Source: Bacteroidales bacterium
Lineage (GTDB): Bacteria > Bacteroidota > Bacteroidia > Bacteroidales > UBA10428
Direction of reading: 5' to 3'
DNA length: 64,000 nucleotides
NCBI GenBank assembly: GCA_016935355.1
Contig: JAFGRC010000024.1
Span: 33,050-97,049, forward strand
Below the pieces are notes generated by a model that had not been told where the DNA came from, made no database searches, and worked only from the letters and a program-made list of their open reading frames with translations. Of this stretch, positions 47,561 to 54,044 are shown piece after piece. How positions within the stretch are numbered: position 1 is the first letter of the stretch; each line of letters starts with the position of its first letter. The translations under genes were made by a program, and so were the position numbers.

Positions 47561-48015
47561 TGCTTTATGCTGTTAACGGGTAAAAAGTAACCCTTTCAAT
47601 TAAAAAAATAAAAATTGCTGATTACATTATAAAATAATGTACCATTTTTAAAATGGAACTGCATATCAATACATTTGCATTTATTAATATTTCAAATATA
47701 CAATTGAATTATAATTTAATACAAATATTTACATTGTTTTCTTTACATATTTATGATTTTTTCATCTGTTTTAGACAGGAAGGTTCACCATTTGCCGACC
47801 TGATCTGATGCATCCAGGAAAAATTTTCATCTGATGTACACCTGCCGGCATCAAAAGTTATATCCTCAAAAGAGAAAAACAATATTGAAAAATTGATTAT
47901 TTTTATAAATGTGTCCGCATTCAGGATTGTTCACTTTCCGCAGGAATTGCATTATAATTTCTTCGTAAACCCTGAAACGTGACCATATTCACAGGAATGA
48001 TCAAACGATTGCATC
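47561..48015. other. 455-bp AT-rich intergenic region
   Basis: Very AT-rich gap between the sigma factor and the SLOG kinase, transcribed in opposite directions. TACATTTG at 47670-47677 matches TAnnTTTG on the plus strand but would leave a leader over 300 bases. A perfect 7-bp palindrome CCATTTT-T-AAAATGG lies at 47642-47656. No coding frame or RNA gene is seen. Confidence 0.5.
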
Positions 48016-50589
48016 ATGAATGAAGCAATGAATCATAAAACAGCGTTCATTCCCCTTTACCTCGGGATTTCCGGTCACCATGACATATGTAACGCGGACA
48101 AACCGCAGCTTAAACAAATGATAAAGGACATCATTGAAGAAAAGAAAGTTCAATATCCGGATACCCCTGTCATAATGCTGACTCCTCTGGCAGAAGGGGC
48201 TGACAGGCTGGCCGCATTTGCATCTCTTGAATGCGGCATATCATTTATCGCACCGCTTCCCATGCCGGTTGACGAATACCGGAAAGACTTTACAACCTCG
48301 GAATCCCTGCATGAATTCAATGAACTGCTTGATAAGGCAGATTCCTGGTTTGAATTGCCTCTACCACACGGAACAAGAACTGAAGAATTGCAGCAAAACA
48401 AAGAAAAACGGGATGAACAGTATTATCAAAACGGATTGTTTATTGCGAGGCAATCGCAATTGCTGATTGCACTCTGGGATGGCATTGATAATGAAAAACA
48501 GGGGGGTACCGCTCACATTGTGAAACTGAGAAAAACCGGCCTGCCGTCATCACACCCGCAATTGCAGCAAAGATTGCAGAATCTCCAGTCAGGTCCTATC
48601 TGCCATATCCTCACGCCGCGCAAAGACTCACCTAAGCCTGCCGGAGCTTTCAAAAAAAAATTGATCTGTTCGGACTATCGGGGCAGTGACGAAAACGCGT
48701 TAGTGGAAATGGACCAGCAGTTGCTCGGTCATGTAGATGCCTATAATCGCGATGTGCAAATGCTTGCCCCAAAACTGAAGGAGAAGATCCGGCAGAGTGA
48801 AGAGAACCTGGTACATGATCAAAGTATTTTAACGTCAAGCCCTGAACTTCAAAGGATCGCACAATACCATGCCATTACAGATTCCCTTGCCACTCATTTT
48901 AAACACAAACGTTTTATCGCTTTAATAATATTGCTGGTGCTTGCAGTGGTTGCATTTATATTTTTTCTGATCCAGCTGGAGTTTTGGCAAAAACCTGTCA
49001 TACTTCTTCTGTATCCCCTGATCATGGGATTGGGTACCTTATGGTTTCTGAATTCAAACAGAAAACGTTACAGAAAAAAACATGACGATTACCGCGCCCT
49101 TTCTGAAGCATTCAGGATTCAGTATTTTCTCTCCATTGCGCAAAGAAGGATCAATGTGTCGGAATATTATCTTCAAAAGTACAAGAGCGAACTTGAGTGG
49201 AGGATCTATGCGCTTCGTGCAGCAATGCTGAAATGCAGCACAGAAGGAATTAAGGGTGCTGTTAATACTGTTGAAAGCAACCTGAGTGATTGCAATTACA
49301 TTAAAGATTACTGGGTGTCAGATCAGCATGAATATTTCAGAAGATCAAGCCTGAAATACAAGCATCTGCATAAAATGCTCCGGTACTCCGGCAATATCCT
49401 GTTTTTTGCATCGTTGGGCGCAGCATTATTCTTATTCTTTATAAGCTTACGAGCGGACCACATACTTACATTCATGAATAACCATGAGGATGTGGCACAT
49501 TCTGTTCTGGTGGTTTGCTCGCTTGGATTTCTCGTTGTTTCAGGAGCAGTCCATGGATACAATGAAAAGATGGCCTTTTCCAGACAATCCAGAACCTTTG
49601 AACAGATGTGCCAGCTTTTCAGAATGGCCGGTGAAAAACTAAGAATTGCAATTGAATCAGATAACCGTAGTGAAGCAGTTGAGATCATCCGGGAACTGGC
49701 ACAGGAATCATTAATGGAAAACCTTGAAGCACATCAACAAGAACTGCAGGTAATCAATACCCTGCTCGAAGAACAAAAAGAGGAACTGTTCCGGCAAAGG
49801 GAAGAACTGAAATCCACCCTTGAAAACCTTCATAAGACACAGCAGCAACTTATTGAATCCGAGAAAATGGCGGCTTTAGGCGGACTTGTTGCCGGAGTAG
49901 CCCATGAGATCAATACACCGGTAGGGATTGGCATTACAGCCATCACCACTTTGATGGATGATTTTGAAAAAATAGCCGGGCTGTTTAATAGAAATGAAAT
50001 CACCCGGGAGGACTTCAGGAAATTCTTAGAATCAACGAAGGATGCAGGAGCACTCATCCAGAAAAATCTTGAACGCACTGCTTCACTTATCCAGAGTTTC
50101 AAACAGGTTTCCGTGGACCAGGTCTCGGAACAGCAACGAATATTTGTTTTCAGGGATTACCTCAATGATATCCTTTCCAGCCTTCAACCGAAATTCAGCG
50201 GAAAGCATATTGATTTTAACATTGAATGCGATGAAAAGCTGGAACTGGACTCTTTCCCCGGTGTCTATGCGCAGATCTTCACCAATTTTTTATTGAACAG
50301 CCTGCAACATGGATTTGCTGACAAGGAGGCAGGTACTATTGGAATTAAAGCTGATATAAACAAAGATTTACTGGAAATCCAGTATCGTGATGATGGGGCA
50401 GGTATCAGCAGGAAAGACCTTCCGCATATCTTCGAACCCTTTTATACCTCGGATCAACGCAAAGGTACAGGACTGGGGCTGAATATTATCTACAACCTTA
50501 TCAAACAAAAACTGCACGGAAACATAACCTGTGAAAGCGAACCGGGGCAAGGGGTGTTGATTAAGATCGAAGTGCCGGTGAATCGATGA
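48016..50589 (+). CDS. SLOG-domain, four-TM sensor fused to histidine kinase
   Basis: This 857-residue protein has a remarkable layout. Residues about 14-245 are a SLOG-type nucleotide/ligand-binding domain (GISGHHDI at 18-25, LTPLAEGADRLAA at 55-67, LIALWDGIDNEKQGGTAHIV at 150-169). Two membrane hairpins follow, at about 299-345 and 456-514, each trailed by SLATT-like segments (DDYRALSEAFRIQYFLSIA; FEQMCQLFRMAGEKLRIA). A coiled coil (565-612) leads into a HisKA domain with His630 in VAGVAHEINTPVG and a HATPase_c domain (NSLQHGF, DDGAGIS, GTGLGLNI). Normal SLOG-4TM proteins end near residue 570; here a kinase is added. No response regulator gene is adjacent. Confidence 0.85.
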   Translation: MNEAMNHKTAFIPLYLGISGHHDICNADKPQLKQMIKDIIEEKKVQYPDTPVIMLTPLAEGADRLAAFASLECGISFIAPLPMPVDEYRKDFTTSESLHEFNELLDKADSWFELPLPHGTRTEELQQNKEKRDEQYYQNGLFIARQSQLLIALWDGIDNEKQGGTAHIVKLRKTGLPSSHPQLQQRLQNLQSGPICHILTPRKDSPKPAGAFKKKLICSDYRGSDENALVEMDQQLLGHVDAYNRDVQMLAPKLKEKIRQSEENLVHDQSILTSSPELQRIAQYHAITDSLATHFKHKRFIALIILLVLAVVAFIFFLIQLEFWQKPVILLLYPLIMGLGTLWFLNSNRKRYRKKHDDYRALSEAFRIQYFLSIAQRRINVSEYYLQKYKSELEWRIYALRAAMLKCSTEGIKGAVNTVESNLSDCNYIKDYWVSDQHEYFRRSSLKYKHLHKMLRYSGNILFFASLGAALFLFFISLRADHILTFMNNHEDVAHSVLVVCSLGFLVVSGAVHGYNEKMAFSRQSRTFEQMCQLFRMAGEKLRIAIESDNRSEAVEIIRELAQESLMENLEAHQQELQVINTLLEEQKEELFRQREELKSTLENLHKTQQQLIESEKMAALGGLVAGVAHEINTPVGIGITAITTLMDDFEKIAGLFNRNEITREDFRKFLESTKDAGALIQKNLERTASLIQSFKQVSVDQVSEQQRIFVFRDYLNDILSSLQPKFSGKHIDFNIECDEKLELDSFPGVYAQIFTNFLLNSLQHGFADKEAGTIGIKADINKDLLEIQYRDDGAGISRKDLPHIFEPFYTSDQRKGTGLGLNIIYNLIKQKLHGNITCESEPGQGVLIKIEVPVNR

Positions 50590-50691
50590 AGGTATTGTAC
50601 TTCAATACTTTCAGGTTCTGTTGTGGAATCCTTTCATGTGTAAATAATTTAATTTTAATGGTCACATGTAACTCGCGATGAACCCCGAAGG

Positions 50692-50765
50692 ACTCAGCGA
50701 AGCTAATTTAAGCATGCTTTTTTGTGAACCGAGCTTGCGAACTCAGCGAAGCTAATTTAAGCATG
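50692..50765 (+). repeat. Two identical 25-bp direct repeats
   Basis: Positions 50692-50716 and 50741-50765 are identical (ACTCAGCGAAGCTAATTTAA and five more bases), spaced 49 bp. Related GAACC..GAAG/GCTTGCGAAC text precedes both. They lie between the SLOG kinase and a decayed gene and may be a dispersed repeat or junction scar. Confidence 0.7.
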
Positions 50766-50776
50766 TTAAATTATTT

Positions 50777-51085
50777 CATGAGATGATCCTGAACAACCTT
50801 TAAAAGATCAAAGATCTCAGGGTGATATCGCACACATCGGTTGAGCAGTAAAGAAATCAGCGCAAACCCATCGCTGAAATTGCAGAAGAACTTAATGTAA
50901 ACTATATTGTGGAAGGCAGCGGACAAAAATACGGTAATGCTTTCCGACTGAGGGCACAATTAATTATGGCAGAGCATGAGACCCATCTCTGGGATGAATT
51001 TTACCAACAGGAAATAAACAACGCAGCAAAAATTTTCAATATACAGATCCGGATTGCTGCAATCATTGTCTCAGAACCTTTACTT
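50777..51085 (+). pseudogene. Remnant of a TolB/FlgO-domain TPR protein
   Basis: In one frame from 50780 the translation reads EMILNNL*KIKDLRVISHTSVEQ, *RNQRKPIAEIAEELNVN, then YIVEGSGQKYGNAFRLRAQL and HLWDEFYQQEI..IFNIQ. This is the conserved N-terminal domain found in many Bacteroidota adenylate-cyclase/TPR proteins (LSKI.DLRVISRTSV, IA.ELNV.YI.EGSVQ, R..AQL, HLW.E.Y). Two in-frame TAA codons (50801-50803 and 50849-50851) and a lost front and back show it is dead. The 5' end abuts the 25-bp repeat. Confidence 0.7.
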
Positions 51086-51143
51086 TCAGGTCCTATGCTT
51101 CATGATGCCAAAACAGGTTGCATATTATCTTATGTTTCAAGTT

Positions 51144-54044
51144 TCAAGTTTCAGGTTCAGGCGGTGTACAGCTACAGACCAGGTTCCGATCACCGTAGGC
51201 TTCATCCACACGGCTTACCGAAGGCCAAAACTTGTGTTCTTCCAGCCATTTCAGCGGAAATGCAGCCTTTGTTCTTGTATAGGAGTGTTTCCATTCATCG
51301 CTTGCTATCATGGTCTCGGTATGGGGCGCATTCTTCAGAACGTTATTATCTGTGTTGCCGGATTCAATCACCTCCTGAATCTCCTGCCAGATTGCCTTCA
51401 TTGCTTCAATGAACCTGTTGAGCTCCTGAAGGGACTCACTTTCGGTGGGTTCCACCATCAGGGTGCCGTGTACCGGAAATGAGAGTGTAGGTGCGTGAAA
51501 ACCATAATCCATAAGTCTTTTGGCAATATCGGCCTCGGTTATGCCCGCGAGATTTTTAAATGCACGGCAGTCGAGGATCATTTCATGCCCGACAAATCCG
51601 TTTGCACCTTTATACAGAACATTATAGTAATCATTCAGGCATGATGCAAGATAGTTCGCATTCAGAATGGCGATCCTGCTGGCATGTGTTAAACCTTCCC
51701 CTCCCATCAGACTGCAATAAGCATGTGAAATGACCAGAATGCTTGCACTTCCGAAGGGTGCGGATGAAACAGCCGAAATACCGCCACTTGTTCCCGTATC
51801 AACCACAGGATGTGCGGGCAGGAACTTTTCCAGATGATTTGCCGCAAGTATGGGTCCCATACCCGGGCCCCCACCCCCATGCGGTATGGCAAAAGTCTTA
51901 TGCAGGTTCAGGTGACAAATATCTGCGCCGATAAAGGCAGGACTGGTCAGTCCGATCTGCGCATTCATATTGGCACCGTCCATATAAACCTGACCACCGT
52001 GCTGGTGAATGATATCGACCATCTCCCGGATTGCCTCTTCAAACACCCCGTGCGTTGAAGGATAGGTGACCATAAAAGCGGCCAGACAGTCGCGGTGTAA
52101 CTCAGCTTTTGCCTTGAGGTCACTTACATCAATATTCCCATGATCATCACAATTGACAACGACAACATTCAGTCCGGCCATTGCAGCGCTTGCCGGATTG
52201 GTACCGTGTGCCGATGCCGGTATCAGCACTACATCGCGGTGCGACTGACCCAGGCTGGCCAGATATTTTTTTATGACCAGCAGTCCGGTATACTCCCCTG
52301 CCGCACCGGAATTGGGCTGAAACGACACCCCATTGAATCCGGTTATGGCCTTTAAAAAATCTCCGAGTTCACGAATGATCTGCTGGTATCCTTCAGCCTG
52401 ATCAACGGGCACAAAAGGATGGATGTTGCCGAATTCCGGCCAGCTTAGCGGCAGCATTTCCACTGCTCCGGTCAGTTTCATGGTACAGGAACCGAGTGAA
52501 ATCATACCGTCTGTCAATGCAAAATCCTTTCGTTCCAGTTGTTTCATATACCGCATCATCCCGGTTTCGCTTCTGTAATTTTTAAATAGCGGCAGGTCCA
52601 TGTACCGGTCCGTACGAAGGAATTGTTCATCGATTTTTACAGTCTGATCTGATCTTGTAATATCCTGCACAGATTGAAAAGCATCTTTGATCTTCCGGAC
52701 ATCCTGACCTGATGCCTGTGCAAAAACTTCAATGATACCGTTCAGGTCAGCGATGGTTGTGGTTTCATCCAGACTGATGCCCACACTTCTGTCGTTGAAA
52801 TACCGGAAGTTAATCCCGTGATCCAGTGCCAGTGAGCGTATCATGTCCTGCGGAACATACCCGGGCAGAGGTACCCTCAGCGTATCAAAAAATACTTTGT
52901 TATCCTGTTGATATCCCAGTTTCGTCAGCATGTCCGACAAGGTTACTGCATATGTATGGATGCGCCGGGCAATGGACTGCAAACCCTCGTATCCGTGGTA
53001 TACCGCATACATTCCGGCCATAATGGCCAGCAAAGCCTGGGATGTACAAATATTGGATGTGGCCTTTTCACGTTTGATATGCTGTTCCCTGGTCTGCAGC
53101 GCCATGCGGTATGCACGCCGGTTCTCCCGGTCAATGGTAACCCCGATGATGCGTCCTGGAATGAAGCGCCTGTATTCACTCTTTGCTGAAAAATAAGCGG
53201 CATGAGGTCCCCCATAGCCCATGGGAATGCCAAACCGTTGTGTTGACCCGACAACCACATCAGCACCCCAGTTTCCCGGGGGTTTCAGCATAACCAGACT
53301 CATAACATCTGCTATCACCGCCAGGGCGATACCGCGGGCATGCAACCGTTCTGCAAATTTAACGTAGTCAACTATTTTTCCATCGCCGGCCGGATACTGT
53401 ACCAATGCGCCAAAGTAGTTTTCCTCAGGATTCATGGTTGTGAAATCACCCGTAACAATTTCAATTTTCAATGCTTCAGCACGGGTTTTTATTACAGCCA
53501 GAGTCTGGGGAAAAATATTAAGATCGATAAAAAAACTTTTGGAACCTTTTGCCAACTTTTCCTTTGAACGTGCATTGTACAGCATGATCATTGCTTCAGC
53601 GGCGGCCGTTCCCTCGTCCAGCAACGAAGCATTGGCCAGCTCCATGCCGGTCAGCCCGGTGATGACCGTCTGAAAATTGAGAAGCGCTTCCAGTCTTCCC
53701 TGTGAAATCTCAGCCTGGTAAGGTGTATAGGAAGTGTACCAGCCCGGATTTTCCAGAATGTTCCGCTGTATTACCGGAGGCATGAAAGTACCATAATACC
53801 CCATGCCGGTATATGTTTTGAATATTTTGTTTCGCTTTGCAATTTTGCGGATCCTGTCAAGGTACTCCTGCTCACTGATGCCTTCCGGAATGACAGGGAA
53901 AGCATTCAGACGAATGGAGGCAGGTATGGTTTTTTCGATCAGTTCATCCAGACTTTCAACCCCGATCTTTTTCAGCATACCCTGCAAATCTGTTGTCCGG
54001 GGACCTGTATGCCGGTATGCAAAATGGTCACTGTTCATGTTCAT
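51144..54044 (-). CDS. gcvP: Glycine dehydrogenase (decarboxylating), P-protein
   Basis: This 966-residue PLP enzyme decarboxylates glycine and passes the aminomethyl group to the lipoyl H-protein. Both halves are present: the N-terminal half (FKTYTGMGYYGTFMPPVIQR, later GNWGADVVVGSTQRFGIP) and the C-terminal half with PLP Lys in HLNLHKTFAIPHGGGGPG. Length is normal for the homodimeric form. Other gcv genes are not next to it, which is common. It ends 58 bp from the decayed TPR fragment, convergent with it. Confidence 0.97.
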   Translation of the reverse strand: MNMNSDHFAYRHTGPRTTDLQGMLKKIGVESLDELIEKTIPASIRLNAFPVIPEGISEQEYLDRIRKIAKRNKIFKTYTGMGYYGTFMPPVIQRNILENPGWYTSYTPYQAEISQGRLEALLNFQTVITGLTGMELANASLLDEGTAAAEAMIMLYNARSKEKLAKGSKSFFIDLNIFPQTLAVIKTRAEALKIEIVTGDFTTMNPEENYFGALVQYPAGDGKIVDYVKFAERLHARGIALAVIADVMSLVMLKPPGNWGADVVVGSTQRFGIPMGYGGPHAAYFSAKSEYRRFIPGRIIGVTIDRENRRAYRMALQTREQHIKREKATSNICTSQALLAIMAGMYAVYHGYEGLQSIARRIHTYAVTLSDMLTKLGYQQDNKVFFDTLRVPLPGYVPQDMIRSLALDHGINFRYFNDRSVGISLDETTTIADLNGIIEVFAQASGQDVRKIKDAFQSVQDITRSDQTVKIDEQFLRTDRYMDLPLFKNYRSETGMMRYMKQLERKDFALTDGMISLGSCTMKLTGAVEMLPLSWPEFGNIHPFVPVDQAEGYQQIIRELGDFLKAITGFNGVSFQPNSGAAGEYTGLLVIKKYLASLGQSHRDVVLIPASAHGTNPASAAMAGLNVVVVNCDDHGNIDVSDLKAKAELHRDCLAAFMVTYPSTHGVFEEAIREMVDIIHQHGGQVYMDGANMNAQIGLTSPAFIGADICHLNLHKTFAIPHGGGGPGMGPILAANHLEKFLPAHPVVDTGTSGGISAVSSAPFGSASILVISHAYCSLMGGEGLTHASRIAILNANYLASCLNDYYNVLYKGANGFVGHEMILDCRAFKNLAGITEADIAKRLMDYGFHAPTLSFPVHGTLMVEPTESESLQELNRFIEAMKAIWQEIQEVIESGNTDNNVLKNAPHTETMIASDEWKHSYTRTKAAFPLKWLEEHKFWPSVSRVDEAYGDRNLVCSCTPPEPET

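Follow-up and report, generated by a model that had tools for sequence, protein, structure and literature searches.

The 64,000-nucleotide window carries on its forward strand an open reading frame at 48016–50589 that runs from ATG to stop without an internal stop and encodes a single protein of 857 amino acids. Residues 1–569 comprise a SLOG domain and two transmembrane hairpins (the head), and residues 570–857 consist of a coiled coil followed by HisKA and HATPase_c. The gene lies between an ECF-sigma-like gene and gcvP in an apparently lineage-specific insert of about 3.4 kb (47762–51149), which also holds debris downstream of it and was delimited by DNA comparison with the genomes G698, G701, G546 and G703. 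In the closest genome, G698 (protein identity of 86% for gcvP and 89% for rluD), the DNA is collinear with the window up to 47761 and again from 51150, with about 140 bp between, and the fused gene is absent from the gcvP/ECF-sigma place in all four genomes. This distribution points to either a lineage-specific insert or repeated loss of the stretch in relatives. A repeated intergenic element at 50633–50785 contains a 25-nt direct repeat at 50692 and 50741, and partial copies of it occur on several other contigs. The initial annotation had placed a decayed signalling gene just downstream of the fused gene; a short decayed fragment does lie there, outside the protein (about 50861–51090, forward strand), recognized by frame reading and by a 70% match to DNA at another place in the genome. 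We take it to be TolB-like from a motif, although a Pfam search of the fragment gave no match.

The C-terminal half is a HisKA histidine kinase. Pfam profiles match HATPase_c at residues 752–856 (50269–50583; PF02518, E 5e-21) and HisKA at residues 621–686 (PF00512, E 2e-4, narrowly missing the curated cut-off), the latter being the HisKA/DHp segment at 49876–50073. The catalytic boxes NSLQH, DDGAGI and GTGLGL are all kept, as is the phospho-acceptor His630 (49903–49905) in the H-box GVAHEINTP. Upstream of them, residues 570–620 (49723–49875) form a coiled-coil signalling helix like the coiled coil in resident kinases of the genome, and this segment falls in a helix predicted by AlphaFold2 (AF2) at residues 551–658 with moderate confidence. 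Motifs and profiles therefore agree with the earlier description of a chain that continues through a coiled coil into a complete HisKA/HATPase kinase with His630. The same description listed no adjacent partner regulator, and reading of the locus bears this out: no response regulator adjoins the fused gene, there is no operon, and the nearest receiver domain on the contig is about 23 kb away. Elsewhere in the genome, 34 receiver-domain matches represent possible partners. A DUF3369-type regulator, suggested as a partner by regulators beside related kinases in other genomes, was rejected because the genome has no PF11849 match. Kinases of this type in related genomes (L165, L168, L169 and L170) have as neighbours receiver-like proteins that share a recurring VDDE(E/Q)DIHS motif and may be their cognate regulators.

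The identity of the head emerges from its family and its predicted fold. The N-terminal part of the protein gave no significant SLOG or SLATT match in Pfam, NCBIfam or PADLOC, no SLOG family in Pfam even at E ≤ 10, and only a weak match to DUF4231 (E 0.016–0.2). Direct search of the PDB with the head found no sequence relatives. A scan of the genome collection with a head alignment returned 129 relatives. The best 80 of these were retained, and a final alignment of 69 rows (the fused protein and 68 relatives) was examined with profile matches counted at E ≤ 0.01. Among these 69 members, six matched the YAcAr SLOG profile in Pfam (best 1.3e-6), two matched DprA, 15 matched SLATT_1 (best 2.8e-7) and 25 matched DUF4231, and NCBIfam SLATT_3 was found in 41. 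The SLOG and SLATT profile search proposed in the initial annotation thus failed on the protein itself and succeeded on its family (YAcAr at about 1e-6, SLATT_1 at about 3e-7).

AF2 on the same alignment (pLDDT 91.8, pTM 0.91) predicts a Rossmannoid domain followed by long hydrophobic helices in two hairpins. With Foldseek, the first domain matched ShosA (8zva), DprA and LOG TM1055 at probability 1.00 (best PDB E 3e-3, none at ≤ 1e-3), as well as YspA/DprA-like viral proteins, in agreement with a Rossmannoid SLOG fold. The top ten PDB matches were the SLOG proteins ShosA and DprA with one exception, a molybdenum cofactor carrier, which we take to have a LOG-like fold. ShosA is the best structural match to the domain, but its alignment is confined to the SLOG part, leaving the transmembrane hairpins and the kinase unmatched. 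The SLOG domain, YspA/cYpsA-like, spans residues ~13–217 (48052–48666) and carries the motifs GISGHHD, PLAEGADRL and ALWDG...GGTA in conserved columns. The first hydrophobic hairpin (residues 276–350, 48841–49065; AF2 helices 276–322 and 327–350) corresponds to the DUF4231, SLATT_1 and SLATT_3 matches of the relatives and precedes a conserved DYRALSEAFR helix. The second occupies residues 423–519 (49282–49572; AF2 helices 423–478 and 491–519). Both hairpins and the DYRAL(A/S)E helix appear in the model and in the alignment, giving the arrangement of a SLATT-type two-TM hairpin with a cytoplasmic helix. The final head helices, residues 521–569 (49576–49722), end in ...QESLMEN, the last residues that align with the 68 stand-alone relatives. 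The four predicted transmembrane segments, with topology taken from the model and hydrophobicity, would place the SLOG domain and the kinase together on the cytoplasmic side. The claim that the first 570 residues are a SLOG domain plus two SLATT-like hairpins accordingly holds through family profiles and the modelled fold, but not through any profile match in the protein itself.

The predicted ligand pocket is partly altered. Near-invariant residues of the SLOG loop are replaced in the fused protein (S19 for T and H22 for R), which places it among the more deviant members, a contrast inflated by the fact that the relatives were partly found through a pattern that includes these same residues. 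With S19 and H22 in their place, the specificity of the pocket may be changed or gone. The fused protein retains the GADR and GGTA motifs of the pocket.

The homologues of the head form a widespread family whose other members stand alone; they occur in Bacteroidota, Acidobacteriota, Nitrospirota, Planctomycetota, Verrucomicrobiota, Pseudomonadota, Bacillota and other phyla. Phage or plasmid carriage was rejected, since no phage matched the family, viral contigs gave two distant loci and plasmids gave only distant SLOG-domain matches on four. A TIR, RyR or STING gene lies within ~6 kb in 35 of 87 family loci (a raw count, without a background rate), with TIR-WD40, NACHT-WD40 and TrkA-RyR genes among the neighbours and a TIR-STING and RyR pair in Pelotomaculum (L049). 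In this last genome, the RyR, TIR-STING and stand-alone SLOG-4TM genes are consecutive (L049:1015–4372), possibly a STING-linked conflict operon. Genes that we named by reading their sequences also place nucleotide-cleaning functions beside some stand-alone members, which directly follow dut-fbp-like genes (L010, L055) or adjoin mazG-like genes (L011/L053, L052). Two further members (L125:5875–8487 and L093:5983–8499) have a tandem duplicated SLOG ahead of the hairpins. The defence link proposed earlier holds for the wider family, but the two closest relatives (G546 and L047) have no TIR, RyR or STING neighbour and no visible defence operon, and no such partner gene lies next to the fused gene either.

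Known systems built from similar modules suggest what the head could sense. SLATT has been predicted to be a nucleotide-responsive pore-forming effector (PMC7159879; PMC9503650), and ThsA, a SIR2-SLOG protein, is reported to be activated by cADPR isomers (PMC11204291). Thoeris ThsA and the TIR-SLATT conflict systems share with the fused protein SLOG or two-TM SLATT modules, which in those systems work with TIR-derived nucleotide signals (PMC11204291; PMC9503650; PMC7159879). In contrast, their outputs are NADase activity or predicted membrane pores, and the fused protein has neither a TIR partner nor an NADase domain. The genome, which is 94% complete, yielded no TIR_2 gene, so a TIR-made ligand would have to come from elsewhere. 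The head might instead respond to a non-nucleotide cue (a peptide, a protein partner or the state of the membrane), in which case the SLOG domain would be a structural scaffold and the kinase would report the cue. We consider this improbable: the missing TIR and RyR neighbours of the closest relatives and the missing TIR_2 gene are compatible with it, whereas the retained GADR and GGTA motifs and the frequency of nucleotide-signal genes near the wider family speak against it. SLOG proteins are not all nucleotide sensors, and DprA, for example, binds ssDNA.

The two parts of the protein meet between codons 569 and 570 (49722–49723), where homology to the head family stops and DNA homology to resident kinases starts. 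Stand-alone relatives end soon past the position of residue 569, in a conserved tail, (D/E)W and often ..HRERP, that contains a tryptophan in 67 of 68 and is missing from the fused protein. The best relatives come from the same genus (G546; 585 amino acids, 52% identical) and from an uncultured Bacteroidia (L047; 44%); the former ends ESLMENADWLLLHRSRPMEIPKG, and the fused protein reads ESLMENLEAHQQELQVINTLL... at that place. The SLOG domain, both hairpins and the final helices of these stand-alone SLATT/DUF4231-like proteins match residues 1–569, but they have their own tail and no kinase, and the fused protein has 288 kinase residues instead. From 49723, the first base of codon 570, DNA identity to kinases of the same genome is 73% (C101) or 75% (C119, C50 and C99). 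The resident kinases C119 and C101 share the coiled coil, HisKA and HATPase_c at ~70% amino-acid identity and differ in their input heads, which are a TPR head and a large sensor region, respectively, rather than SLOG and four transmembrane segments. Phylogenies of the two parts agree in indicating two parents. In the head tree, the fused protein is sister to the same-genus protein (support 100/97) and then to the uncultured Bacteroidia protein (100/100). In the kinase tree, it groups with paralogs of its own genome; bootstrap values there are modest, and a long branch (86/100) disturbs the grouping. The paralogs form an expanded kinase-cassette family on contigs C101, C50, C99, C119 and C154 (L039–L042 and L044; 70–78% identity to the fused kinase); several of them are located at the ends of contigs, and a stop interrupts the matched stretch of the C101 copy.

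An assembly chimera, in which the assembler joined a stand-alone SLOG-4TM gene to a separate kinase gene, is very unlikely and was rejected. The genome is a MAG of 173 contigs, several of which end inside kinase paralogs, and such an error would be conceivable in that setting. However, the longest exact word shared by the junction and any paralog found is 18 bp, GC content is equal on the two sides (43.4% and 43.7%), and the left half runs on into the ECF-sigma side and the right half into gcvP. As these two flanks adjoin in genus mates, an accidental join would have needed to unite two fragments of one locus.

The fusion appears to be confined to a single lineage. No kinase was fused to the head in any of the ~90 relatives whose ORFs were read, including the same-genus gene, and no fused relative was found in family, class and phylum genome samples. 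The literature text searched contained no SLOG/SLATT-histidine kinase fusion; the founding SLOG/SLATT paper (Burroughs et al. 2015) lay outside that search. The initial annotation had named, as grounds against itself, a fusion absent from relatives and caused by a misread stop. The absence was found in every relative inspected, but a misread stop is rejected as the cause, since no stop breaks the frame and homology switches with codon precision at the junction, as expected of recombination with a resident kinase type. Judging from these comparisons, the output domain was exchanged recently, in a lineage-specific event, and the fused gene was seen in one MAG only.

Such an exchange could also have arisen as a chance in-frame joining in a gene that is decaying or drifting neutrally, leaving the head as a vestigial membrane anchor and the kinase constitutive or inactive. 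Uniqueness to one genome, loss of the conserved tail, the S19 and H22 substitutions and the position in an insert with decayed debris downstream would all suit this explanation, which we nevertheless regard as unlikely because every kinase motif is kept, the 857 codons contain no stop and the codon-precise junction runs helix to helix. Third codon positions are the most divergent on both sides of the junction, which also argues against decay; as read from the DNA, this bias, averaged over pre-fusion time, shows that each half was constrained in the past, which need not hold for the time since the fusion.

We lean, with confidence slightly better than even, towards a genuine recent fusion in which a SLOG plus four-TM protein lost its tail, gained a resident kinase cassette and would now pass a nucleotide-type signal into a phosphorelay. 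A SLATT/DUF4231-like membrane protein would have exchanged its conserved tail for the coiled coil, HisKA and HATPase_c of the resident expanded kinase family. Its cytoplasmic SLOG domain would bind a nucleotide-type ligand, upon which the hairpins would rearrange in the membrane, and the terminal head helix, which now runs directly into the coiled coil, would relay the change to the DHp helix. His630 would then be autophosphorylated, and the phosphate would be passed to an unlinked response regulator. In the full-length AF2 model, a single helix (residues 551–658) joins the final head helix to the coiled coil and extends beyond His630 with pLDDT of ~60–87, which fits signal passage by helix movement. 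The kinase half of this model has low confidence and its catalytic domain cannot be relied on, as kinase relatives were absent from the alignment. Nucleotide sensing that feeds a phosphorelay is therefore a plausible, putative function, and the ligand, the direction of signalling, the kinase activity and the partner regulator are all predicted. The ancestral output, probably membrane effector action, would have been replaced or supplemented by the phosphorelay. As to a physiological role, we tentatively raise the possibility that a nucleotide sensor and membrane effector of conflict systems was rewired as a two-component sensor, so that a nucleotide signal of infection or damage would lead to phosphorelay and not to direct membrane action.

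SLATT and SLOG proteins have been predicted to act as effectors that respond to nucleotides, and few of them have a measured ligand or conformational output. In this natural fusion to a kinase, autophosphorylation offers an enzymatic signal by which ligands could be screened for the whole family. If functional, the fusion shows that the signal is carried by the last helix of the head, and it represents a clean example of kinase-cassette shuffling inside one genome.
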